From positions 1 through 64,000 of the forward strand of contig WAKQ01000002.1 in the NCBI GenBank assembly GCA_015523295.1: 64,000 bases of DNA, read 5' to 3'. Shown in pieces: positions 37,474 to 54,184 of the stretch; the stretch's first letter is position 1, and each line of letters opens with the position of its first letter. A program made the position numbers and the translations under genes. The notes beneath the pieces are model-generated. The model ran no database searches. It was not told the DNA's origin and was given only the letters and a program-made list of their open reading frames with translations. Source of the stretch: Desulfurococcales archaeon. Lineage in GTDB: Archaea > Thermoproteota > Thermoprotei_A > Sulfolobales > NBVN01.

Positions 37474-39327
37474 TTGGTGTATCACTTGGTTTATGGATGG
37501 AGCGGGAAGGCACTATATATAGATATAGGTCGGGAAGAATACAAGAAGATCTCATTATCTTCCGCAGTTCTCCGTATGTTCATCGGGGGCAGAGGCCTCG
37601 CAGCTAAACTCCTTTGGGATCTCAACCCAGTTGGAGTTGAACCGCTATCACCTGAGAACCACCTCATATTATCCACTGGTCCCCTCACCGGATATCCAAT
37701 ACCTTCATCAGGCAAGCTCGTAATAGCGTCTAAATCCCCTCTTACTGGAGGTTATGGAGATGGGAATGTGGGAACCAAGGCGGCTGTTGAGCTTAGGAAG
37801 AGCGGGGTAGATGCGGTAATTATTAAGGGTGCATTTCAAAGACCTTCGCTTATACGAATCACATGCAAAGGGGTTGAGTTCCTGAATGGTGACGAGTACT
37901 GGGGCCTTACGGCTCACGAGACCGAAAGCAAATTGAGGAAGGAATTTGGCTCTAAACCTGCCTACCTTTACATAGGACCCGCTGGGGAGAACTTAGTTAA
38001 ATATGCAACCATAATAAGCGAGTATGGCCGTTCAGGAGGTAGACCCGGTATGGGGGCGGTGGCTGGCTCCAAAAAGTTAAAGGCAGTTATTATTGAGGGT
38101 TGCAACCTTCCTGAAGCTGCTGATAAGGACGCCCTTCTAAAAGCCGGGGCTGAAGCCTATATAGACCTCAAGAAGAAACCTTCCTATAGCTTTTGGGTAA
38201 GACAAGGAACCATGTCCACGATCGCGTGGTCACAGAAGAACTCAGCACTGCCTACCTATAACTTCAGGGAAGCAGTGTTTGATGGTTATGAAAACATCAC
38301 CGGTGATGTGATGGAGAAGCTGAGAGTTAGGAATGAGGCATGCCCCTACTGCAATATGCCCTGCAGGAATTACATAGAGTATGAGGTAGACGGAAGTAAG
38401 AAGATAGCTGAAATGGATTACGAGCCTACAGCTCTCTTCGGATCAAATCTCGGGATATCCGACATGAACGCCGTAGCCCACCTTTCAGACTTAGCAGATG
38501 ATATGGGGCTTGATGCCATAAGCACAGGCAACGTTCTCGGCTTTGCTATAGAGGCGAGCCAACACGGGTTGATCGAGGAGAAGATAGAATGGGGCGACTA
38601 TGATAGGATTAAGGACCTCATAATCGATATCGCCCATAGGGAAGGCATGGGCGATGACCTCGCCAACGGGGTTGCGTGGCTCTCTAGAAAGTTAGGGCAT
38701 GGCAGTGAAAGATATGCGATGCACGTGAAGGGCCTTGAAATCTCAGCATATGACTGCCATGCAGCTCCCGGAATGGCGCTCGCTTACGGCACGAGCAGCA
38801 TAGGAGCTCACCATAAGGACGCTTGGTTTATATCCCTTGAAATACAGATGGGCCGCGATAGCTACGCTCCTGAGAAGGCGGATAAGCTTGTATGGATGCA
38901 GAACATTAGGGGAGGGCTTTTCGAGTCGTTCGTAACTTGCAGGCTCCCATGGGTGGAACTCGGGCTGGACCTTGACTACTACCTGAGATTCCTTAAAGCA
39001 GCCACAGGTGTTAGCTTCACATGGGATGAACTTCACACAATAGCGAATAGGATATATGCATTAATAAGATCTTTCTGGATTAGGGAGTTCAGAGCTAAGG
39101 GGATAGAATGGAATAGAATGTTTGACTACCCACCAGATAGGTGGTTTGAGGAGCCTCTTACCCAAGGACCATTAGCGGGTTCAAAACTAGATAGAAAAGG
39201 CTATGATAAGCTCCTCAGTAGATACTATGAAATTAGAGGATGGGATCAGAACGGCGTCCCCAAAAAAGATACTCTTGAATCACTAGGGCTTCCAGAGGTG
39301 GCTAATTTAATCCATGGAAGCAATTGA
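37474..39327 (+). CDS. aor: tungsten-dependent aldehyde:ferredoxin oxidoreductase
   Basis: About 617 residues (TTG 37474; GTG 37477 also possible). The N-terminus YGWSGKALYIDIG and GGRGLAAKLLW (about 34-44) are the tungstopterin-binding region. The Fe4S4 cluster ligands are ACPYCNMPC (about 290-298) with a fourth Cys in VTCRLPW (about 490). AOR oxidises aldehydes from amino-acid and peptide breakdown with ferredoxin as acceptor. Family subtypes (AOR, FOR, GAPOR) are hard to tell without alignment. A long spacer to IleRS follows. Confidence 0.9.
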   Translation: MVYHLVYGWSGKALYIDIGREEYKKISLSSAVLRMFIGGRGLAAKLLWDLNPVGVEPLSPENHLILSTGPLTGYPIPSSGKLVIASKSPLTGGYGDGNVGTKAAVELRKSGVDAVIIKGAFQRPSLIRITCKGVEFLNGDEYWGLTAHETESKLRKEFGSKPAYLYIGPAGENLVKYATIISEYGRSGGRPGMGAVAGSKKLKAVIIEGCNLPEAADKDALLKAGAEAYIDLKKKPSYSFWVRQGTMSTIAWSQKNSALPTYNFREAVFDGYENITGDVMEKLRVRNEACPYCNMPCRNYIEYEVDGSKKIAEMDYEPTALFGSNLGISDMNAVAHLSDLADDMGLDAISTGNVLGFAIEASQHGLIEEKIEWGDYDRIKDLIIDIAHREGMGDDLANGVAWLSRKLGHGSERYAMHVKGLEISAYDCHAAPGMALAYGTSSIGAHHKDAWFISLEIQMGRDSYAPEKADKLVWMQNIRGGLFESFVTCRLPWVELGLDLDYYLRFLKAATGVSFTWDELHTIANRIYALIRSFWIREFRAKGIEWNRMFDYPPDRWFEEPLTQGPLAGSKLDRKGYDKLLSRYYEIRGWDQNGVPKKDTLESLGLPEVANLIHGSN

Positions 39328-42500: not shown

Positions 42501-42533
42501 ATTCAAAGGGCTGGTCAAGATGCTGCTGGTTAG
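39531..42533 (+). CDS. ileS: isoleucyl-tRNA synthetase
   Basis: A 1000-residue class I synthetase charging tRNA-Ile (including the Ile2 isoacceptor at 23135). The HIGH motif is PHIGH (55-59); KMSKS appears as KMTKH (about 604-608). A zinc site CWRCHTPLIYRAGRQWF (near 402-418) and the editing domain (TTPWTIVDNEAVAVNP, about 225-240) are present. It is about the family length. The start GTG is the first of two adjacent GTGs behind AGGTGAGGTG. It overlaps the next gene by 14 bases. Confidence 0.97.
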   Translation: MVIITDLGRFRIKDIEKEVKKYWSTNEIPAKWRSINKERPTYSFLEGPPTANGFPHIGHLRGRIYKDMVLKYYRLKGFNVWAQAGWDEQGLPVEVEVEKKLGIKHKKEIGEKIGFDEFVRKCNELVDYYLSFWRKYATEEIGLWLDLENAYETRKAWYINHVWHFIKEAYEKGLIYEGYRVLPYCPRCETALSDAEVDQGYQEKISPSIYVKFKVEGERGTYLIIWTTTPWTIVDNEAVAVNPEGTYCKVRVGDEYWWIAENRVKEVMDLSGVKEWSCVERVKGSTLEGLRYEHPLMNEVPIHKTHKNAHYVVLAEYVSLDEGTGLVHTAPGHGPEDYETGVKYGLPITSNVEINGVFNEKGGVFKGLYVDEASRKVIEILKNKRLLVHEGTIKHQYPHCWRCHTPLIYRAGRQWFLKVTAVKERLLQELSKVNIYPTKLRARFDNWVANAKDWTISRSRIWGTPLPIWKCRSDPKKVLVIGSLDELKNYAAFLPKVKDDELVHRPWIDEVKIVTDDCQEWVREPFVVDVWIDSGMAWLASVNGLKNQEVWRKLFPYNFITEGIDQTRGWFYSLLVTSVILTGQAPYKDILMQGLVLDKYGRKMTKHLGNVVWGKDAIERYGVDQLRLYILSSYPPGEPFIFNLEELKEPLSKLNIIWNVYRFANTYMELDKFNPEVHDLKELIKNAKKEDLWIISRVNTVQKEVDEYMKHYDLHLATRAVINFFIEDLSHNYLRLVRPRVWREEGDDKYVVYAALYYTLKKGLQMLSPITPHFAEALWLRFIKKFEPKEAESIHLSRLADVEADLINTRLEKVFNEVFRASSFIASLRNAAGIKLRWPLKVAYLKVSDKEIKSMLEEGVETLKFLTNIKHLEIVEELPAECKSKEFLTMSNESMEGCIPSRLDKDTYMEALAREIIRRIQVMRNEADLRVDEFIEVWIKTNDEDIVKSIERLRDYIMNEVRARKLVIGKIGSKGLIKEWDVEGKKITIGIQRAGQDAAG

Positions 42534-43482
42534 CGGCTCCCTAAACTACGATGTTACCTTCGAAGTTAATGCCTTTGCTCCTCCTAAAGCGATAGTCAGG
42601 AAGATTTCCCGTTATTTAGGAGGTTCGGGAGGTAATGCAGCTGTAGCTGCTGCGAGGATCTTAGGCCCTAGGAAAGTCTTCTTCTTAGGGTCTGTAGGGA
42701 ATGACGATATAGGTGAAATGCACCTAAAATCCCTAGCTGAGGAAGGCTTGATAACCCAATACATTAGAGTAGTTGATGGGGTTGAGTCCGGTCAAGCCTT
42801 CGTAGCAGTAAGACCAGATGGTGAAACAGCCATCTACAGCTACTATGGCGCAAATCAGTATATTACAAGCGATGCTCTATCTAAAATCCTGCCGAAAATC
42901 CAAGCGACTCTTATTATGAATCCCCCTCTGCCAGTGGCTCGCGAGATTGCATTACAAGCAAAGTCGTTTGGAAAAAAGATATTTTGGGATCCCGGTGCCT
43001 TAGCTTATAAAGGAATTGATGAACTAGGTGATATTATTAGGCACACGGATTACTTTATGCCTAACTTAAATGAACTTCTAATACTAACCGGGGAGAATAG
43101 CCTCACAGACGCGTTGAACAGAATTAAGGAAATCAATCCGAGACTTAAGGTTATACTTAAGAGAGGGGCTGAGGGAGCATCCTTCCATTATCTGAGAACT
43201 GGAGAAGAGATAAAGATCCCTGCTATACCACCTGAGGCTCTAGGGCTAGGAGGTATCGTATCGACGGTGGGATGTGGTGATACGCTGACCGGGTCTTTCA
43301 CAGCTTTGATGCTTAGGGGTTTCAACGAGAGGGATTCTCTACTTCTCTCAGTATGTGCCGCTGCTGTCAATCTAGCCTTTGAAGGTCCTAGAAATTCCCC
43401 CACATACAACGAACTTCTTAATAAGTATTCACCTTTATGCAGGAGTTATGTGGAAAAGCGCGTGGGACTTCATTCCCAGTAG
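42520..43482 (+). CDS. PfkB-family sugar/nucleoside kinase
   Basis: A 320-residue ribokinase-fold enzyme. Substrate loop GGSGGNAAVAAARILGP (about 32-48), ATP-binding ILKRGAEGASF (about 211-221) and the catalytic GCGDTLTGSF (about 252-261) are intact. The gene starts inside the last 14 bases of ileS. Within about 100 bases two ribose-1,5-bisphosphate-isomerase/eIF2B paralogs follow, which suggests a nucleoside or ribose-1-phosphate kinase in the pentose-bisphosphate salvage pathway, as in Thermococcus. RuBisCO and AMP phosphorylase are not seen here. Confidence 0.85.
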   Translation: MLLVSGSLNYDVTFEVNAFAPPKAIVRKISRYLGGSGGNAAVAAARILGPRKVFFLGSVGNDDIGEMHLKSLAEEGLITQYIRVVDGVESGQAFVAVRPDGETAIYSYYGANQYITSDALSKILPKIQATLIMNPPLPVAREIALQAKSFGKKIFWDPGALAYKGIDELGDIIRHTDYFMPNLNELLILTGENSLTDALNRIKEINPRLKVILKRGAEGASFHYLRTGEEIKIPAIPPEALGLGGIVSTVGCGDTLTGSFTALMLRGFNERDSLLLSVCAAAVNLAFEGPRNSPTYNELLNKYSPLCRSYVEKRVGLHSQ

Positions 43483-43580
43483 ATATATAGATTCAGCAGA
43501 ACAACAGTGTTTTGAGTAAGGTTTAAGTAATTATTAGGAGTTTTAATTAACTAAGAAATTAACTAAGAGAGGCTTCCACA

Positions 43581-44585
43581 ATGCACTCCACACATACATG
43601 CGATGAAGCTTTTGAAAGAGTTGAGAAGATCGCTAAAGACCTGAAAAGCGGGGCTATACTAGGTTCTACTGAAGCCGCTTTCGTAGTTTTCAGGGAGATT
43701 AGGGAAGCTTCGACCGCATGTGGTAAATTATTTAGTAAATACCTCCTGCAGGCACTTCCCTCTTTTATAGAGGCAAGGCCTACATCAATAATAATGAAAA
43801 ACCTAATTCGGAATTACCTTGAAGAGCTGATTAAAGAAGCGAGTGAACATGGTTTCGATGAGGCTAGAGGAAGAACCCCTGAGATAATAGATAGCATTCT
43901 AGGAGATGTGACAAAAGTTCAGGAAGCTGTAGCAAGAGTGGGAGCTAAGAGGGTTACTGATGATGGCACAATTCTTATTCACTCGTACAGCAGTACCGTG
44001 TTGAAGCTTCTTGAGATCGCTAAAGAGTCCGGGAAAAGATTCAAAGTATTTGTTACAGAGTCCAGGCCTATTGGAGAAGGTAAAGTTGCGGCGAGCAGGC
44101 TGGGCGCCTTGGGAATTGATACTACCTTAATTGTAGATTCCGCAGTGAGATATATAATGAAGAAAATAAGCGATGTTTTCTTCAGTGCAGATGCTGTAGC
44201 TGCTAATGGAGCGGTGGTCAACAAGATAGGCACCTCAGCAATAGCGCTAGCAGCTAAGGAGGCGAGAGTCAGAACCTATGTAGCTGCAGGAACATATAAG
44301 TTCGGCCTAGAGACCGTCTTTGGAGAACTGGTGGAAGGTATGGTGCTCAGTGACGCCCGCCTTATAATACCTCCTGAGAAGGTGAATGAGCTGGCTGGGA
44401 GGGTGCTCGTTCGCGCGCCCCTCTTCGATGTCACCCCGCCAGAATATGTAGACGCAATAATCACTGAGATTGGCGTCATAGCACCTCAAGCAATTCCTCT
44501 TGTAATCAAGGAGATTTATGGGTGGCCTCCTAAGGTTGTGAGCCTTGATTCACTGCTAGAAGAGGTGAGAAAACATGCCAGTTAA
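43581..44585 (+). CDS. eIF2B-alpha/ribose-1,5-bisphosphate isomerase paralog lacking the catalytic Cys
   Basis: A 334-residue member of the eIF2B/MtnA/R15Pi family. The C-terminal Rossmann part has NGAVVNKIGTSA and FDVTPPEYVDAIITE. At the catalytic-Cys site of R15P isomerase it has HSYSS (Ser135), as in eIF2B-alpha rather than THCHS. It may be a regulatory aIF2B-like subunit. It overlaps the next paralog by 11 bases. Two 48-base blocks are identical to that neighbour. Confidence 0.8.
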   Translation: MHSTHTCDEAFERVEKIAKDLKSGAILGSTEAAFVVFREIREASTACGKLFSKYLLQALPSFIEARPTSIIMKNLIRNYLEELIKEASEHGFDEARGRTPEIIDSILGDVTKVQEAVARVGAKRVTDDGTILIHSYSSTVLKLLEIAKESGKRFKVFVTESRPIGEGKVAASRLGALGIDTTLIVDSAVRYIMKKISDVFFSADAVAANGAVVNKIGTSAIALAAKEARVRTYVAAGTYKFGLETVFGELVEGMVLSDARLIIPPEKVNELAGRVLVRAPLFDVTPPEYVDAIITEIGVIAPQAIPLVIKEIYGWPPKVVSLDSLLEEVRKHAS

Positions 44586-45582
44586 ATATAAAGAACGTGA
44601 AATCCCGGACTCCGTCGTCAAGATACGTGAAGACATTAGAACTATGGTGATCAGAGGCGCTGGAAAAATTGCTAGGGCTGGAGCGAAGGCTCTCGCACAG
44701 GCTGCTCAAGCATATAGCGGTTTCAGCTTAGATGACTTTCTCAACTATATGGAGGCTGTGGCCGAGTATGTAAGGTCAGCTAGGCCAACGGCAGTGTCCC
44801 TGCCAAATGCAGTGTCCTACGTCATGATCAGACTTAAGAGGCTCCATCCTTCAAGCCTCGAAGAAGCGAGGACAGCTGTAATTAAGGCCGCTGAGGAGTT
44901 CATCGAGTACTCGATTAACTCGGTGAAGATAATTGGAGAGTTAGGAGCCCGAAGGATCTCGAATGGCGATGTCATCATGACACACTGTCATAGTACTGTG
45001 GCGGTCTCAGTAATAGCAACAGCTCATAAACAAGGAAAGGTTCATAAGGTATATGTTAAGGAAACGAGGCCTAAGATGCAGGGATTAATAACTGCAAAAG
45101 CATTGTCCGATGAAGGCCTCGATGTTATACTGATCCCAGATTCCTCAGTGAGATACTTCATGAAAAGAGTGAATAAAGTAGTTGTTGGTGCTGATACTAT
45201 AGCTGCTAATGGAGCGGTTATTAATAAGATAGGCACTTCCCTTGTAGCGCTAGCAGCTAAGGAGGCGAGAGTCAGAACCTATGTAGCTGCAGAGACATAT
45301 AAGTTCAGCCCTCTAACAGTAATAGGCGAGTTAGTACCGATAGAGGTGAGAGAGCCGACAGAGATAGTAGACGAGGCTTGGCTGAAGGAAAATCCGAATG
45401 TGAAGGTATACAATCCAGTCTTCGATGTCACCCCGCCAGAATATGTAGACGCAATAATCACTGAGAAAGGAGTAATCCCTCCGCAAGCAGCAATCCTCAT
45501 CCTCATGGAAGAATACGGGTTAAACGTATCAGACATACTAACCCAGTTTAATGAGGTGAAGGAAGAGGAACTAGGGGAGTAG
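44575..45582 (+). CDS. ribose-1,5-bisphosphate isomerase-like protein
   Basis: A 335-residue paralog of the preceding gene. Unlike it, this copy has THCHS with Cys138, the expected catalytic Cys of R15P isomerase, together with GADTIAANGAVINKIGTS carrying the catalytic Asp. It would convert ribose-1,5-bisphosphate to ribulose-1,5-bisphosphate in the archaeal nucleoside-degradation pathway. The start overlaps the upstream gene by 11 bases, so the pair may form a heteromer. Methylthioribose-1-phosphate isomerase is a less likely alternative. Confidence 0.82.
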   Translation: MPVKYKEREIPDSVVKIREDIRTMVIRGAGKIARAGAKALAQAAQAYSGFSLDDFLNYMEAVAEYVRSARPTAVSLPNAVSYVMIRLKRLHPSSLEEARTAVIKAAEEFIEYSINSVKIIGELGARRISNGDVIMTHCHSTVAVSVIATAHKQGKVHKVYVKETRPKMQGLITAKALSDEGLDVILIPDSSVRYFMKRVNKVVVGADTIAANGAVINKIGTSLVALAAKEARVRTYVAAETYKFSPLTVIGELVPIEVREPTEIVDEAWLKENPNVKVYNPVFDVTPPEYVDAIITEKGVIPPQAAILILMEEYGLNVSDILTQFNEVKEEELGE

Positions 45583-46626: not shown

Positions 46627-47901
46627 TTAGGGTTCAAGCCCATACCTTTCTTTTAATACAGTTGTAAATTCGTCTAGGTCTGCATTGATTATGGGAGCAT
46701 CCCCAGCAACCTCTTTCACTATATCTGGATCTTTTAACCCATGTCCAGTCACGAGAACAACAACCTCATCATCTCTACCTACTTTGCCTTCACTTATCGC
46801 TTGCATCAAGCCCGCAAGACCCGCAGCACCTGAGGGTTCAGCAAACACGCCCTCGTAGCTTGCCAGATACTTCATCGCCTTAAGGATTAGCGAGTCGCTC
46901 ACTTCCTCTGCATCCCCTTTCGATTCTTTCAACGCTGTAATGCCTCCGTCTCCATCCCATGGATATGGATCCTCAAGACCCCATGCTATAGTATGGGGTT
47001 TTGGCCAAGGCCTTATATTAAAGGGATCTTGACCCTCCTTGAAAGCCCGTACGAATGGAGGATTACCCGAAGATTGTACAGCAACTAACTTTGGAAGATG
47101 GTCTATGAGCCCCAACTGAACGTAATCCCTAAATCCTTTCCATACACCGGTGAGGAGCGATGCAGCACCTACAGGTACGAACACCCAATCAGGAACCTTC
47201 CAATTCAACTGCTCAACAATTTCATAGGAGATCGTTTTAGGGCCCTCAATCTGATACGGGTTGAAAGGCCCAAAGCTTGGAGAAGGATAGAACCCGTATC
47301 TCTCGTAGGTTAGTCGCATAAGTTTTACGGTTGGATCTTCCTCACCCAACCCTCTGACCTTAAATACCTTTGCACCATAAAATAAGAGCTGAGCTATTTT
47401 TCCATAGCCAGCCTGCTCTATAACGAATGCATAGACGTTCATGCCTGCTTTAGCGGCATATGCCGCTAAAGCAGCTGCTGCATTCCCAGATGATGCCGTG
47501 GTAAGGTTTTTGAAACCGAATTCCTTAGCAACACTCACCGAGACAGACATACCCCTATCTTTAAATGAACCTGTCGGATTCCTGGTCTCATCCTTTAGCC
47601 ATATACGCTTGACGCCTAATTCTCTAGCAAGTCTCTCTGCTTTGATTAGAGGGGTTCCACCTTCACCTAGAGTTACTATATTATCCTCCATTTTAGGAGG
47701 GAGGAGATCAAAGAACTTCCACTGGGACCTCAGGGGGTTTTTCTCTACATACTCTTTTGTATAGAATTCCTTCAGCTTCTCATAATCGTAGTATATGTCA
47801 AGCCTGCCTAAGTCATTTTGGGAACATGTCAGGGGTTTATCCTCGTAGCGGTAGGTCTTACCACATCTTGAACATTTAAGGTAGGCTATATATTTGCTCA
47901 A
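46627..47901 (-). CDS. thrC: threonine synthase
   Basis: A 424-residue PLP enzyme making threonine from O-phosphohomoserine. An N-terminal zinc-ribbon-like segment (CSRCGKTYRYED ... LTC) precedes the PLP-lysine motif PTGSFKDRGMS (about 104-114) and the PLP-phosphate loop VPVGAASLLTG. The length fits the archaeal form. It is the last gene of the minus-strand run from the carbamoyltransferase cluster, 106 bases downstream of the PreA-like gene. Because the homologous bacterial clusters include a PLP fold-II ammonia lyase (YgeX), a different substrate cannot be excluded. Confidence 0.88.
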   Translation of the reverse strand: MSKYIAYLKCSRCGKTYRYEDKPLTCSQNDLGRLDIYYDYEKLKEFYTKEYVEKNPLRSQWKFFDLLPPKMEDNIVTLGEGGTPLIKAERLARELGVKRIWLKDETRNPTGSFKDRGMSVSVSVAKEFGFKNLTTASSGNAAAALAAYAAKAGMNVYAFVIEQAGYGKIAQLLFYGAKVFKVRGLGEEDPTVKLMRLTYERYGFYPSPSFGPFNPYQIEGPKTISYEIVEQLNWKVPDWVFVPVGAASLLTGVWKGFRDYVQLGLIDHLPKLVAVQSSGNPPFVRAFKEGQDPFNIRPWPKPHTIAWGLEDPYPWDGDGGITALKESKGDAEEVSDSLILKAMKYLASYEGVFAEPSGAAGLAGLMQAISEGKVGRDDEVVVLVTGHGLKDPDIVKEVAGDAPIINADLDEFTTVLKERYGLEP

Positions 47902-48007: not shown

Positions 48008-49231
48008 TCAGGCCTTGGGCCAGTAGTCTTCCGGGAACCTTATCGCCTTTGTAGGACATACTGTTGTACATAGGCCGCAACCGTAGCATTTCGATGTATC
48101 CACCAATGCTGCTCTTACCTTACCTTTATCAACTACATGAACTGCGTCATAATCGCATGACTGCTCACATAAACCACATGCTATGCACTTTGAGTCGTCA
48201 ACAACCGGGTTTTTGATCTCATACCAACCTGCTGGATCTAGGGTTAGGTACTTAAGAGACTTGCCCTTGACATCTTCAATGCTTGAGTAGCCATGATCTT
48301 TAAGCCATTTAGCAACACCCTCAGCCAACCTCTTAAATACCTGCGGCCCTTCAACTATTGCTTGAGTACACACCTGAACTGCTGAAGCGCCGGCCATCAC
48401 ATACTCAATCACATCTTCAGGTGTTGATACCCCTCCAACACCTATAATAGGTAATCTTGTCACCTTGGCAATTTCTGCGACTATAGCAACTCCTAAGGGC
48501 TTAATTGCAGGTCCTGAAAGCCATCCATGCCCGAAGGGACCTCCCATAACGGGTCTGCCTGTTTCTATATCTATATGGAGTGCCGGTCCTACTGTATTTA
48601 TAGCGACTATACCGTTCACTCCAGCCTTCTCCAACTCCTTAACTAAGTCGGTTAGACCCCAAATATGGGGGCTTAGCTTGGGGAATATCGGGACATCCAC
48701 AGCCTCTCTTAAGGCTTTAGCAGACTCAACGACAGGCGTGTAATCGTGTCCGAGGTAGTGGGTCGAGAATTCAACTGCATGGGCACCTGCCTTAACCGCT
48801 TTAGGGCCTAACTCCCTCAGTTCATGTGCCTTATAACCTATACTCGCAATCAGCGGTATCCCATGCTTATCTGCTACCTTCCTAGCGTAGGGCAGCTCCT
48901 TGTTGAACCATTGTTCAGGAGGTAGATCTGTCCAAAGCTCAGCATTCAGGAAGCCATAGTAAGCCCCTCTTACCTTTGCCAACTTAGTGATCAACCTACC
49001 TTCTTTATACTGCGGAACTATCAGTTCTATGTTGCCGTTGTTAAGGACTCCCATATGCGGTCTTGGAACCTTAGCAGCAACGACTCCTATAGTTTTGCTC
49101 ACCAACCCTCCTACACCGTTCTCCGCGAGTCTCTCCATAGCCTCTCCATCCCTGGATATCGGGCATGCAGAGTTGAGGATAGGGTTCCTGAATTTTAACC
49201 CAGCTATTTCTACCGTTATATCTATACCCAT
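48008..49231 (-). CDS. dihydropyrimidine dehydrogenase PreA/DHODH-like, with two [4Fe-4S] clusters
   Basis: From ATG 49231 (GGTG 6 bases upstream) the product has about 407 residues. A TIM-barrel flavin domain has NPILNSACPISRDG (about 16-29), FPKLSPHI and IGVGGVSTPEDVIEYVMAGASAVQV (about 265-289). The C-terminal ferredoxin domain has CIACGLCEQSC and CYGCGLCTTVC, two clusters. It may reduce uracil/thymine (or a related ring) with ferredoxin-linked electrons. A partner PreT is not seen. It is likely co-transcribed with the amidohydrolase upstream. Confidence 0.85.
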   Translation of the reverse strand: MGIDITVEIAGLKFRNPILNSACPISRDGEAMERLAENGVGGLVSKTIGVVAAKVPRPHMGVLNNGNIELIVPQYKEGRLITKLAKVRGAYYGFLNAELWTDLPPEQWFNKELPYARKVADKHGIPLIASIGYKAHELRELGPKAVKAGAHAVEFSTHYLGHDYTPVVESAKALREAVDVPIFPKLSPHIWGLTDLVKELEKAGVNGIVAINTVGPALHIDIETGRPVMGGPFGHGWLSGPAIKPLGVAIVAEIAKVTRLPIIGVGGVSTPEDVIEYVMAGASAVQVCTQAIVEGPQVFKRLAEGVAKWLKDHGYSSIEDVKGKSLKYLTLDPAGWYEIKNPVVDDSKCIACGLCEQSCDYDAVHVVDKGKVRAALVDTSKCYGCGLCTTVCPTKAIRFPEDYWPKA

Positions 49232-49251
49232 ATAACTCACCTCTACAAAAT

Positions 49252-50640
49252 TCATGGCTTAAGGTACTCGATCTTATACTTAGGCTCCATGCTTATCATC
49301 CTGTCCCATAATTTATCAATCACCTTATGAGCGTACTCCATTACCTTCTCCGTATCAACATTCACAAGCTTCCTTTCTTTGACAACCCACGATCCATTCA
49401 CTAAGACACCCCATACGTCATTACCTGTGAAAGTGTTTACTAGATGCCCGTATACTGTCCGCTCGTCCAGTGGGGTATGCACAAACTCAGGAGATATTAT
49501 GGTGATGTCAGCATCCTTCCCTACCTCGATTGAGCCTACTCTATCATCAATACCTAATACCCTCGCTGCATCAGAGGTGGCCATTTCAACAATTTTAACC
49601 ACGTCAGTCACTCTAGGGTCTTTCTGGGCTACTTTATGTATTAAATAAGCTGACCTCATATTATCGAATACGTCCATCACATACCCATCATTGCCTAAAC
49701 CTACTGTCAGACCCATCTCCCACATTTTAGGAACGGGAGGCACGCCAACACCGTTTATCATGTTGCTCATCGGGTTATGCGCTATCTTGACATCATGCTG
49801 CTTTAACAGTTTAAGTTCATCATCTATGGCTTGAACCACATGAACCGCAATAAGCTTAGGTGATAGAAAACCTATATCGTTCATTCTTTCAATAGGCCTC
49901 TTACCATATCTCTCTATACTGTGATACACGTCGATTAGCCCTTCTTCGACATGCAGGGCATAAATCGTGCCATATTTTTCGGCGAGTTCCTTAGTCTTAA
50001 TGAGAATATCATCCGTTACAGTGAAGGATGCGTGAACTGTGAAGATCCCCTTAACCTTACTGTTTGGGTCACTCCAAGACTTCTTCACAAACCTTTCATT
50101 TTCTTTCAGTCCTTGATAACCTTCTTCAATACTTCTTCTCTGCGTAACTGAGAAACCGGAGAAACCTTTTATCCCTACTTCCTCAGCGGCCTTAGCAATA
50201 TAATCTAGAGAGTTCTCTACAGCGTTAGGTGCGTCGAGAAGATCCTTAAAGAACGTTGTTCCTGTACGCGCGAGCATTATGGAGCCAAGCAACGCACTTA
50301 TATATATATCCTCGTAAGTAAGTGACTCATCCAGCGCCCACCATATTCTCTGGAGATTCTGCTGAAAATCTGAGGGCGGCTCTATGTGGGCAAACCAAGG
50401 AGAGCCTGTCAGGAGTATTCCGTAGAGGTGTGTATGAACGCAAATGAATCCCGGAGTTACAACTCCATGCTTTACTCTCACCACTTCCTCTGCTTTGTAC
50501 CTAAGAGTGCCATCTCCTGAACCCACATCAACTATTTTTCCATCTCTAATTGCTACATAGCCTCTTGGTATGACCGCCTTTGACTTATCCATAGTGACTA
50601 TGAGGGAGTTATTTATGAGAGTATCAACTTTCTCAGTCAT
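49252..50640 (-). CDS. SsnA/TrzN-like amidohydrolase (COG0402)
   Basis: A 462-residue metal-dependent amidohydrolase. The metal site is visible as VHTHLYG (about 69-75), HVEEG (about 231), HVVQ (about 265), and GNDGYVMD (Asp, about 329). Members deaminate guanine, hydroxypurines or related rings, and SsnA is in bacterial anaerobic purine/urate clusters. The ATGs of this gene and the PreA-like gene downstream are near the same spacer. Substrate identity cannot be read from sequence. Confidence 0.85.
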   Translation of the reverse strand: MTEKVDTLINNSLIVTMDKSKAVIPRGYVAIRDGKIVDVGSGDGTLRYKAEEVVRVKHGVVTPGFICVHTHLYGILLTGSPWFAHIEPPSDFQQNLQRIWWALDESLTYEDIYISALLGSIMLARTGTTFFKDLLDAPNAVENSLDYIAKAAEEVGIKGFSGFSVTQRRSIEEGYQGLKENERFVKKSWSDPNSKVKGIFTVHASFTVTDDILIKTKELAEKYGTIYALHVEEGLIDVYHSIERYGKRPIERMNDIGFLSPKLIAVHVVQAIDDELKLLKQHDVKIAHNPMSNMINGVGVPPVPKMWEMGLTVGLGNDGYVMDVFDNMRSAYLIHKVAQKDPRVTDVVKIVEMATSDAARVLGIDDRVGSIEVGKDADITIISPEFVHTPLDERTVYGHLVNTFTGNDVWGVLVNGSWVVKERKLVNVDTEKVMEYAHKVIDKLWDRMISMEPKYKIEYLKP

Positions 50641-50756
50641 GTAAACATCCCTTATAACTTCGCTTACGTAGGGTTTTAAGTATGTGTTAATTAGGATCTG
50701 ATAAAGTAGATTTAAAGAACTACTTATGCAATCAGAATAAAAATAATGAGAGAGAT

Positions 50757-51719
50757 TTAATCAGGAACTATCATAGTTCCTGATTCTCCTTTAATTACTT
50801 CGTACCCGTTCTTTAGATGGCCTATTAAGGCCTTCTTCCCTCCATGTTTTATGAATCTGATGGCAGCCAACACCTTAGGACCCATGCTGCCAGCCTTAAA
50901 GTGACCTTCCTTATAGTATTTCTCCATCTCAGATACCGTTACTACATCTAGCTTCTTTTGATCAGGCTTCCCGAAGTTCAGGTAAGCGCCATCAACGTCA
51001 GTTAAGATTACGAAGGTACCAACCTCCAGGTTAGTTGCCAGCACCTCACCTGCCAAATCCTTGTCAATGACTGCCTCCACACCCTTTAGAGTTCCGTCAC
51101 TCTCTTGGATTACAGGGATACCCCCGCCACCTGAAGCGATAACTATCCATCCCTCGCTTATAAGTTTCTTCACAGCACCTACCTCAACGTTAGCCTTGGG
51201 ATCTGGAGAGGGGACAACCCTCCTGTACCCTCCTCTAGGATCTTTCTTAATTACCCAACCTTTTTCAGCGGCCAGCTTCTTAGCTTCCTCTTCATCGTAG
51301 TAGCTTCCAACGTACTTTGTTGGATTCTGCCATGCAGGGTCATCCTTGCTTACTAAAACCTGATTGACTATAGCAACAACGCCTTTTACAGAGTCCTTAA
51401 CACCCTCCTTAATCAGCGTATTATGTATTGATTGCATGAGGAGATAGCCTAGCCATCCCTGAGTCATCGCTCCGGCTATGTCCATGGCCAGTGGCGGAAT
51501 CCTGTCCTTCGATCTCTCCATCCACTCCAGGATAACACCGACTTGAGGTCCGTTGCCGTGTGTGATGGCAACTTTATATCCTTCCTTAACTATCTTGACT
51601 ATCGTGTCAGCAGCCCTGTAGGCGTTCTTCCAGTAGTTCTCCGTTGTCCCGATCTCGCCTTTGGTTTGGAATGCGTTTCCTCCTAGTGCAAGAAGGATGT
51701 ATTTCTCGTTCCTCGCCAT
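50757..51719 (-). CDS. arcC: carbamate kinase
   Basis: From ATG 51719 (GGTG 9 bases upstream) the product has about 320 residues. N-terminal LLALGGNAFQ (about 9-18), GNGPQVG (about 57), the SGGGGIPV loop (about 205-212) and the VIDKDLAGEVLA motif (about 224-235) are typical. It converts carbamoyl phosphate plus ADP to carbamate and ATP. Two carbamoyltransferases sit immediately upstream in the same run, so the module can make ATP by substrate-level phosphorylation. Confidence 0.95.
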   Translation of the reverse strand: MARNEKYILLALGGNAFQTKGEIGTTENYWKNAYRAADTIVKIVKEGYKVAITHGNGPQVGVILEWMERSKDRIPPLAMDIAGAMTQGWLGYLLMQSIHNTLIKEGVKDSVKGVVAIVNQVLVSKDDPAWQNPTKYVGSYYDEEEAKKLAAEKGWVIKKDPRGGYRRVVPSPDPKANVEVGAVKKLISEGWIVIASGGGGIPVIQESDGTLKGVEAVIDKDLAGEVLATNLEVGTFVILTDVDGAYLNFGKPDQKKLDVVTVSEMEKYYKEGHFKAGSMGPKVLAAIRFIKHGGKKALIGHLKNGYEVIKGESGTMIVPD

Positions 51720-51769
51720 TATTTGCAACACCTTAGGCATTCATCGGCATGACCTATTAAGTTTAATGC

Positions 51770-52840
51770 TTACTCGTACCTGCTTCCCATAACCATGGCC
51801 ATAACGGCCTTTTGCACGTGAAGCCTGTTCTCAGCTTCCTCGAAGTATAATGACTTCTCATAGGTGTCAAGAACCTCATCAGTGACCTCCATGCCGCGGT
51901 CTGCAGGGCCACAGTGCATATAGTAGGGCTTACCTGCCTCTTCAAGGAGATCCATAGTCACTATCCAGTCCTTGAACTTGTCCTGATAGGCTTTGGCATC
52001 CTCCTTGTGAACCTGCCCGTCAGCACTGTAGGGCGGGAAGAAGCCCTTAGGGCTCCATGCCTTTGGATAGACGAAGGCAGCGCCCTCAAACGCCTCCTTC
52101 ATGTCATAGCTCACAGTGAATGAGCCACCGTAAAGATCTGCAAACTCCTTACCCTTCTTTATGACCTCATCCTGTAGCTCGAAGCCCTTAGGATGAGCCA
52201 CTACTACCTCAGCGCCCATCATAGCAGCAATTAACGCTACGCTCTGAGGCACTGCCAGCGGCTTAAGACCGCCCGAGTAAGCATATGACACTACAAACTT
52301 CTTACCCCTCAGGTTAGGCATTACGTCAAGAGCTGCCTTAATGTCGGCCAAGGCCTGGAAAGGATGGTAAATGTCGTCCTCCATGTTAAGGACTGGAATT
52401 GATGACCACTTGGCAAACTCCTCAATAATCCTATGACCCCTGCCGATAATCCACTTAGCAGCATCTCCGTAGATTCTTATAGCTATACCGTTTCCATACC
52501 TGCTTAACACCCTAGCCACATCCCTGATGGCTTCAGTCTTGTAAGCAACCATATCCTCAGGGAGAGTCGGCGTGTACACGTCGTTAGGGCTTAAGAAGTT
52601 AGCATGGCCTCCGAGCTGGAAAATTCCAGATTCGAAGCTGTTTCTAGTCCTCAAAGACCTGTTATAGAATAGCAGGAATAGGGTTTGACCGGGTAGGTAG
52701 TGAGTAGGAACTTTAGACTTAAATTTACGCTCTAGATCTCTTGCTGCCTCAACTATCTTCTTGATGTCTTCCTGGGTCCTGTTTATGTTTGTCAAGTAAT
52801 GCTGTCCTTCCCAAATACCTACATACCAGGGCTTGCCCAT
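51770..52840 (-). CDS. YgeW-like/non-ornithine carbamoyltransferase, copy 1
   Basis: A 356-residue transcarbamylase-fold protein. The carbamoyl phosphate loop is FYNRSLRTRNSFE (about 57-69), not the STRTR of OTC. HPFQALADI (about 160) replaces HPTQ, and the substrate motif MHCGPADRGMEVT (about 307) replaces the canonical HCLP. These point to a substrate other than ornithine, as in YgeW or N-acylornithine enzymes. It is upstream of carbamate kinase. Confidence 0.82.
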   Translation of the reverse strand: MGKPWYVGIWEGQHYLTNINRTQEDIKKIVEAARDLERKFKSKVPTHYLPGQTLFLLFYNRSLRTRNSFESGIFQLGGHANFLSPNDVYTPTLPEDMVAYKTEAIRDVARVLSRYGNGIAIRIYGDAAKWIIGRGHRIIEEFAKWSSIPVLNMEDDIYHPFQALADIKAALDVMPNLRGKKFVVSYAYSGGLKPLAVPQSVALIAAMMGAEVVVAHPKGFELQDEVIKKGKEFADLYGGSFTVSYDMKEAFEGAAFVYPKAWSPKGFFPPYSADGQVHKEDAKAYQDKFKDWIVTMDLLEEAGKPYYMHCGPADRGMEVTDEVLDTYEKSLYFEEAENRLHVQKAVMAMVMGSRYE

Positions 52841-53056
52841 GGATGTTTACCTCAAACCTAACACTCAATAATTTAATAAAATATATTTGCTTATTGCACT
52901 TAGTTAAATGCTTTTCCGGTTAGATAGGGGTAGTACATGATGTATTAATTGGATTTAATTAATTTTTTAAGTGCCTGAAGCAGAGGTTCCTAATAACGAT
53001 CCTCTTAAAAAGTGGTTGAGTAAGAACTTAGTTAAACCTAGTTTATTTTAATTTAT

Positions 53057-54091
53057 TTATCTAATATTTGCCATTGTAAGAGCCAGGACTGCTGCCTTGG
53101 TCCACAAGCCGTTCTCAGCCTGCTCGTACAGTACCGATCTAGGGCTGTCAACTACCTCGTCGTCAGCTTCATATCCCCTCATTATTGGCATGACATGCAT
53201 CAGCACCCCTGACTTGTCCATAAGATCCATCAATTCAGAAGTTACTTTCCAGTCCTTGAATTTCTCATAGGTTTTCAACTCCTCATCACCAAACTTGCTA
53301 TAACCTAACTCCTGCAACTGCATCGATGCCCAATTTCTGGGGAAGACTGCGTGAGCACCCCTCAACGCCTCCCTGTAATCATTAGTGAACTCCAGATGTG
53401 AACCGTTTGCTTCTGCATTCTTCTTAGCCCACTCAACAATGTCAGGGTACAGGTCAAAGCCCGGTGGGTATGCTACTGTGACATCAACGCCTAGCCTTGT
53501 GAAGAGCAATAGATCCTCATTAACGCTGCAAGGACCTCTAACATGGGGTGAGTACGCCCACATAATAACATACTTCTTGCCTTTCGGGTTAGGGAAGACC
53601 TCATTGAACGTCATGTAGTCGGCAAGGGCCTGAGTAGGGTGGAACTGATCATCAGCCATATTAATAACAGGTATTTTCGTGTGCTTGGCGGCCTCCCTGA
53701 TTAGCTGGTTACCCACACCGTGTTTAAAGTCTATGGCCTTATCAAGAATCCTAATTCCTAAGCCATGACCATATCTATCATAAACTGCTACTATGTCTTT
53801 TACTGCTTCCCCTTCACCAGCCCTAGTCTGCCTCGATTCAATGAATTGTGCATGACCACCTAAATACGTCATTGCCGCCTCGAAGGCCGCTCTAGTCCTA
53901 GTGGATGTAGCAAAGAACAGCATGAAGAACGTCTTCCTATCTAAGAGTTTAGGCAGCTTTTCCATCCCAAAGTAATGGTAATTCCATTTCAACTCCTTGG
54001 CTAGCCCTAATGCTATTCTAAGCTCCTCAACATCCCATTCCTGTGTAGTTATTAGATCCTTACCTGTTAGGTCAGCTATGAAGTTTCTCAT
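53057..54091 (-). CDS. OTC-like/non-ornithine carbamoyltransferase, copy 2
   Basis: From ATG 54091 (GGTG 8 bases upstream), about 344 residues. Carbamoyl-phosphate loop FFATSTRTRAAFE (about 59-71) and FHPTQALAD (about 150) are canonical. The substrate loop is MHVMPIMRGYEAD (about 298), lacking the Cys of HCLP. Its partner at 51770 differs in other places, so the two probably use different acceptors or form a mixed trimer. The 216-base spacer to copy 1 has no gene. Confidence 0.82.
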   Translation of the reverse strand: MRNFIADLTGKDLITTQEWDVEELRIALGLAKELKWNYHYFGMEKLPKLLDRKTFFMLFFATSTRTRAAFEAAMTYLGGHAQFIESRQTRAGEGEAVKDIVAVYDRYGHGLGIRILDKAIDFKHGVGNQLIREAAKHTKIPVINMADDQFHPTQALADYMTFNEVFPNPKGKKYVIMWAYSPHVRGPCSVNEDLLLFTRLGVDVTVAYPPGFDLYPDIVEWAKKNAEANGSHLEFTNDYREALRGAHAVFPRNWASMQLQELGYSKFGDEELKTYEKFKDWKVTSELMDLMDKSGVLMHVMPIMRGYEADDEVVDSPRSVLYEQAENGLWTKAAVLALTMANIR

Positions 54092-54184
54092 ACTGGATGC
54101 ACCCATAGTTAAAAAGGGGGCAACGCTATAATACTTTAATTAACACTAAGGTGAAGACTACAACCAACGTCTCAGCCCTTAAAG

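Follow-up and report, generated by a model that had tools for sequence, protein, structure and literature searches.

A window of 64,000 nucleotides from a Desulfurococcales archaeon (positions 1 to 64,000 of contig WAKQ01000002.1) carries a cluster of genes that is interpreted here as the probable core of an archaeal pathway of anaerobic purine degradation. The window is contig C2 of metagenome-assembled genome (MAG) G000, which comprises 932 kb and is 77% complete. (Labels with G refer to genomes, L to fetched loci and C to contigs; all other coordinates are those of the window.) Six genes follow one another on the minus strand from position 54106 down to 46627: two carbamoyltransferases, CT2 (53057-54106, 349 aa) and CT1 (51770-52840, 356 aa), a carbamate kinase (CK; 50757-51740, 327 aa), an SsnA-like amidohydrolase (49252-50640, 462 aa), a PreA/DHODH-fold reductase with a C-terminal 2x[4Fe-4S] domain (PreA-like; 48008-49255, 415 aa) and a threonine-synthase-like pyridoxal phosphate (PLP) fold II enzyme (ThrC-like; 46627-47901, 424 aa). 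The start of the PreA-like gene overlaps the stop of the SsnA-like gene by 4 bases. The first five are the genes of an initial annotation of positions 48008-54091; they are genuine long open reading frames in a single minus-strand run (48008-54106), and only the extent of that run needed correction, to 46627, so as to take in the ThrC-like gene. The same gene order is found again in Zestosphaera and in other Desulfurococcales MAGs, and the run is therefore not a product of chance. (The SsnA-like protein of the window is 83-87% identical to its counterparts in Desulfurococcales MAGs, and 73% identical to that of Zestosphaera tikiterensis.)

The bacterial route to which this gene set can be compared was published in 2025. 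It leads from uric acid to yanthine (XdhD), which is reduced (YgfK or UacX) and ring-opened (SsnA); HyuA then opens the hydantoin, YgeW transfers a carbamoyl group, YgeY performs a hydrolysis and YgeX a cleavage that yields pyruvate. The E. coli cluster is made up of xdhD, ygfK, ssnA, hyuA, ygeW, yqeA, ygeY and ygeX (PMC12507026). One carbamoyl phosphate is obtained in E. coli by way of YgeW, and the other ureido group is hydrolysed by YgeY (PMC12507026). According to a commentary, the reductive route is confined to anaerobic bacteria; in what order the ureido groups are cleaved, and whether the route is an ancient innovation or a recent adaptation to the gut, are treated there as open questions (PMC12990295). 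No report of the reductive route in archaea was found in the literature searched.

CT1 and CT2 were placed in a tree of 71 carbamoyltransferases, including the ornithine carbamoyltransferases (OTCs) and aspartate carbamoyltransferases (ATCases) of the same archaeal genomes. They constitute two separate clades (support 100/99 each) that join E. coli YgeW, Collinsella YgeW and one bacterial cluster protein (98/98). The OTCs, those of the same archaeal genomes among them, form a clade of their own (96/93), and CT1 and CT2 lie apart from it and from the ATCases. The initial annotation had proposed a phylogeny of YgeW-like proteins as a check, and had named a grouping of both transferases with ordinary OTC and ATCase as the outcome that would count against it; that outcome did not materialize, because both fall with YgeW. 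It had also noted altered substrate motifs, and these are real: TDVWxSMG of OTC is replaced by PKAWSP in CT1 and PRNWAS in CT2, and HCLP is replaced by HCGP and HVMP, respectively. Lacking these motifs and lying outside the OTC clade, neither protein qualifies as an ornithine carbamoyltransferase. The Asp of TDVW is Lys in CT1 (18/18) and in YgeW (3/3), which have Y-P-K-[AS]-W in common, and Arg in CT2 (17/17). The WAYSP-type loop of the knotted branch is present in CT1 and CT2 and missing from OTC and ATCase; CT2 retains the STRTR carbamoyl-phosphate motif, and CT1 has SLRTR and HPFQ. The best NCBIfam models for both proteins are of OTC/AOTC type, all below cut-off, and the best solved-structure match of CT1 is an N-acetylornithine carbamoyltransferase (AOTCase; 3m5c). 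CT1 and CT2 thus share their fold family and carbamoyl-phosphate motif with YgeW, AOTCase, SOTCase and PTCase (PMC4581275), and the knot-loop segment with YgeW and AOTCase; unlike these, they make up two clades of their own, the HCGP and HVMP motifs being those of the window's lineage.

The carbamate kinase scores 384 bits against TIGR00746 (arcC), over the cut-off of 358, and is 41% identical to E. coli YqeA. With the transferases grouping with YgeW at 98/98, the YgeW-type carbamoyltransferase and the carbamate kinase that belong to the reductive uric acid pathway are both represented in the run. A more conventional explanation would be anabolism of arginine or pyrimidines, or fermentation by way of an arginine/agmatine deiminase, with transferases of OTC/ATCase type and a kinase that supplies or uses their carbamoyl phosphate. 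Annotation at the family level, which is OTC, favors this explanation, but it is highly improbable: the same genomes retain separate OTC-clade and ATCase genes, CT1 and CT2 have lost the ornithine-binding residues, and no significant deiminase match was found in G000, and 12 of 16 genomes were negative. The presence of one CT1 and one CT2 in each of several distant lineages suggests that the two act on two substrates or on two positions of one.

E. coli SsnA and all of the archaeal SsnA-like proteins form one clade (100*), to which the TRZ and guanine deaminases encoded in these genomes do not belong; the archaeal proteins share with E. coli SsnA the metal ligands and the segments GxDGxxxDxFxxM and SNMxNxVG. 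The phylogeny of the SsnA-like protein, likewise proposed as a check in the initial annotation, thus bears out its assignment, and clade and common segments together identify it as the SsnA orthologue of the reductive uric acid pathway. The PreA-like protein has the PreA fold and a ferredoxin tail; its top NCBIfam model is PreA, at a sub-threshold 200 bits. The SCPx active-site loop that is present in E. coli PreA, mammalian dihydropyrimidine dehydrogenase (DPD) and one Heimdallarchaeal homologue is absent, and the protein is accordingly not classed as a dihydropyrimidine dehydrogenase. The loop cysteine has an established role in DPD, and absence of the loop argues against uracil as the substrate. 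The combination of DHO_dh and ferredoxin domains places the protein among the YgfK/UacX-type flavin reductases, the match to UacX being one of described domain make-up.

The initial annotation had allowed that the adjacent threonine synthase gene might be there by coincidence. This is not so: the ThrC-like protein belongs to a paralogue clade (99/98) that tracks the rest of the set through 29 genomes of the order, and that includes copies adjoining SsnA (Heimdallarchaeota), adjoining CT2 (Baldrarchaeota) and within a cluster of the archaeon HR01. Several of the genomes with these copies have a separate, canonical threonine synthase as well. In this clade, the canonical segments ASTGNT and NSxNPxRxEGQKT have become ASSGNA and GPFNPYQxEGxKT, and GNxGN is variable; we take the substrate-site roles of these residues from Thermus ThrC. 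The substrate-site segments of threonine synthase are thus not preserved, though the score against TIGR00260 is above cut-off. (A paralogue at G000:C10:60.6 kb, considered as the canonical threonine synthase of this genome, is also devoid of the canonical segments; G001-G003 and others do have canonical copies.) A YgeX orthologue was not found by BLAST in the fetched loci, and there is none in the window's run. The ThrC-like protein is not an orthologue of the diaminopropionate ammonia-lyase YgeX; it is a ThrC-family paralogue in the place of YgeX, and its function may still match. The most economical role that we can infer for it is that of a diaminopropionate lyase, the step of E. coli YgeX.

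Co-occurrence was surveyed in 147 genomes of the order. CT1, the PreA-like and ThrC-like proteins and a hydantoinase, HyuB, are found in the same 29 genomes; SsnA and CT2 are found in 28 each of these, either one being absent from one fragmented MAG. In three genera that have both carriers and a good-quality non-carrier (G058, G024 and G133), the non-carriers are devoid of the whole set, HyuB included. In many genomes HyuB is encoded away from the core; in the window's genome it is at G000:C10:43610-44950. Its distribution makes it the HyuA-type hydantoinase of the set; it is 31% identical to E. coli HyuA and a possible orthologue of it. At this locus (L119:10288-14953), HyuB is together with a TRZ-family hydrolase and adenine deaminase, in what is likely to be an entry point for nucleobases; in G150, CT2 adjoins a TRZ deaminase and an adenine deaminase, as it also does in G004 and G006 to judge by coordinates. 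A distinct xanthine dehydrogenase (XDH) group, whose members score 575-738 bits to the XDH2 paralogue of G000, is present in 25 of the 29 carriers and in none of the 118 other genomes; the group was delimited after the fact by the score gap between it and XDH2. The pathway XDH adjoins HyuB in G110 and G064; in G145 and G150, it and the core are found within one region of ~24-33 kb. These observations support inclusion of the hydantoinase and xanthine dehydrogenase encoded elsewhere in these genomes in the predicted set.

Another locus of the window's genome (L121; G000:C10:99-115 kb), conserved in relatives, encodes an ATCase-like protein, XDH1, XDH2, a dihydroorotase/allantoinase-type protein and an ABC importer. 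It may serve pyrimidine synthesis, purine use or both. It was considered as an upstream part of the pathway and set aside: XDH2 is also present in genomes without the set, the amidohydrolase has the dihydroorotase-type motif HVHMREPG, and the transferase has the HPLPR motif of true ATCase. A FastTree grouping of XDH1 with E. coli XdhD alone was not upheld, since XDH1 groups with XdhA and XdhD together in a mixture-model tree.

The PreA fold and the hydantoinase family are those of classic pyrimidine enzymes, and the R15P isomerases and the ribose-1-phosphate-kinase-like gene that adjoin the run suggest use of nucleosides. These features might be accommodated by reductive pyrimidine degradation with energy recovery, in which the PreA-like enzyme reduces uracil or thymine, the hydrolase opens dihydrouracil, a transferase phosphorolyses N-carbamoyl-beta-alanine and CK makes ATP, the two transferases serving uracil and thymine. 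Such a scheme is distinctly unlikely: besides the missing SCPx loop, it leaves no role for SsnA and the ThrC-like enzyme, the XDH group is restricted to genomes with the set, and adenine deaminase is linked to it.

The run is better interpreted as encoding the central part of a reductive, anaerobic pathway by which archaea degrade purines in the manner of the uric acid route, a reading to which we assign a probability of about two in three. Adenine and guanine would first be deaminated, and an enzyme of the xanthine dehydrogenase family would then bring the oxopurine to the required oxidation state; candidates for the substrate are uric acid, yanthine and other oxopurines. The PreA-like enzyme would reduce the ring with electrons from ferredoxin, as UacX and YgfK do, the SsnA-like enzyme would open the pyrimidine part of the reduced purine, and HyuB would open the remaining ring, yielding 2,3-diureidopropionate. 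CT2 would phosphorolyse one ureido group of this compound and CT1 the other, each carbamoyl group passing to phosphate, and carbamate kinase, proposed to run toward ATP formation, would use the carbamoyl phosphates and ADP to make ATP. Should CT1 and CT2 indeed act on one ureido group each, every ring would give two carbamoyl phosphates and, from these, two ATP. The remaining 2,3-diaminopropionate would be cleaved to pyruvate and ammonia by the ThrC-like PLP enzyme (or a linked CysK-like one). Each step of the known route thus has a proposed candidate in the archaeal set, with CT2 as an extra transferase, and fermentative purine degradation, which could yield up to two ATP per ring, is the best reading. 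The proposal of the initial annotation, that purine-derived ureido compounds are turned into carbamoyl phosphate as a source of ATP, is in this way supported by families, trees and co-occurrence, evidence that is comparative throughout, and fits it better than do the rivals considered. Substrates, direction and ATP yield are read from what was observed directly: gene content, linkage, phylogeny, co-occurrence and residue changes.

Several points weigh against this interpretation. Scores of CT1 (136 bits) and CT2 (131 bits) against the YgeW equivalog TIGR03316 are far from its curated cut-off of 500, and the top model of the SsnA-like protein, SsnA (NF005540), is matched at 355 bits, short of an equivalog cut-off of 444. 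Carbamate kinases of hyperthermophilic archaea can work anabolically, as established for Pyrococcus. Pairwise Fisher p-values for the genes of the set range from 1e-27 to 1e-31, but these are uncorrected for ancestry and overstate independence, the 147 genomes being related. A CysK-like PLP gene is linked to the cluster in several relatives; with no YgeX orthologue found, either it or the ThrC-like protein could be the lyase. A YgeY-like M20 peptidase adjoins the cluster in G150 and L026, so that CT2 need not replace YgeY. (YgeY-like genes beside the cluster or beside another PLP gene are at L026:5582-6772, L253:2271-3461 and L065:217-1401. No YgeY hydrolase is encoded in the window's run, the only part of the window's genome that was searched for it.) Finally, the three xanthine dehydrogenases of the window's MAG are all outside the pathway-specific group; the congener G118 is also without a pathway XDH, and for it, as for the 77% complete G000, either incompleteness or real loss would fit.

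The want of a pathway-specific XDH in the window's own genome favors a variant in which a purine-derived substrate still yields carbamoyl phosphate, but the ring is taken apart in another sequence (for example through xanthine- or hypoxanthine-derived ureido acids) and with intermediates unlike those of E. coli. The ThrC-like protein in place of YgeX is also in its favor, as are the tungsten AOR-family genes (AOR, aldehyde ferredoxin oxidoreductase) that Baldrarchaeota and Geothermarchaeota have beside SsnA/PreA instead. On the other hand, each step of the known route has its candidate, the hydantoinase with identical genome distribution included, and this variant is judged unlikely.

The gene set is also present in Asgard archaea and Nitrososphaeria. 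One stretch of archaeon HR01 (L051) has F420-type (LLM) reductases, SsnA, three XDH subunits, both carbamoyltransferases, CK, ThrC-like and CysK-like genes, and SsnA is also paired with LLM F420-type oxidoreductases in L032. Heimdallarchaeal G012 has a HyuA-like gene, CT2, a CK-sized gene, CT1, SsnA and a ThrC-like gene inside about 25 kb. SsnA, PreA-like, an AOR-family gene and a HyuB relative are found in Geothermarchaeal L037; there and in Baldrarchaeota L031, AOR-family genes with iron-sulfur partners adjoin SsnA/PreA, where they perhaps stand in for molybdenum XDH. A carbamoyltransferase, carbamate kinase, selenium-type XDH and SsnA are found in one bacterium (L055).

The archaeal set draws on the same enzyme families as the E. 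coli cluster to dearomatise the ring, to open it, to open the hydantoin and to transfer the carbamoyl group, and for its carbamate kinase. Unlike the E. coli cluster, the archaeal set has two carbamoyltransferases, a ThrC-family protein in the lyase role and a PreA-like protein rather than YgfK; in the window's lineage, its genes are divided among two or three loci, and a YgeY-like gene is at the cluster in some relatives only. The second ureido step, hydrolytic in E. coli, is proposed to be phosphorolytic too. The C. difficile variant (UacX, UacY; PMC12507026) also has a DHO_dh-type reductase without an FAD domain, thought to be ferredoxin-dependent, but it hydrolyses the 2-ureido group by UacY, without a transferase/kinase pair. 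HR01 and L032 resemble a Chloroflexota variant with an F420-type reductase (PMC12507026), whereas the window has a PreA-like reductase. In the ureidoglycine carbamoyltransferase pathway of Rubrobacter, purine-derived carbamoyl phosphate likewise feeds carbamate kinase (PMC4016543), but that route is oxidative, via allantoate, and its ATCase-like enzyme has an H[TS]LP motif (PMC4581275).

With a complete candidate set in archaea, both hyperthermophilic and Asgard, the question of the pathway's origin becomes testable; the finding suggests that the route is more than an adaptation to the gut. A farther-reaching proposal, possible rather than probable, is that archaea (Desulfurococcales, Nitrososphaeria, Asgard) have long had a fermentative purine pathway that employs two dedicated carbamoyltransferases and gains two ATP per ring, the uric acid pathway of gut bacteria being a branch of this pre-gut pathway and not a host adaptation. 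If it is correct to assign one transferase to each ureido group, having two distinct enzymes allows a clean decision as to which group either of them takes. Substrate-level ATP from purines would be an addition for archaea described mainly as fermenters of peptides or sugars. Staphylothermus marinus has no de novo purine synthesis (PMC3261824). Likely functions are also provided for genes annotated as OTC, threonine synthase and dihydroorotate dehydrogenase.

In the window and in several relatives, the run is adjoined by a ribose-1-phosphate-kinase-like PfkB gene and two R15P isomerase-family genes (42520-45582, plus strand), the second of the pair above the NCBI cut-off and the first below it; these neighbors suggest that the ribose of nucleosides is used alongside the degradation of bases. 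An AOR-family gene is located at 37474-39327 (plus strand). In one Desulfurococcaceae branch (L017:7061-8784 and relatives), a radical SAM protein and a ~315 aa protein are encoded between CT1 and CK.

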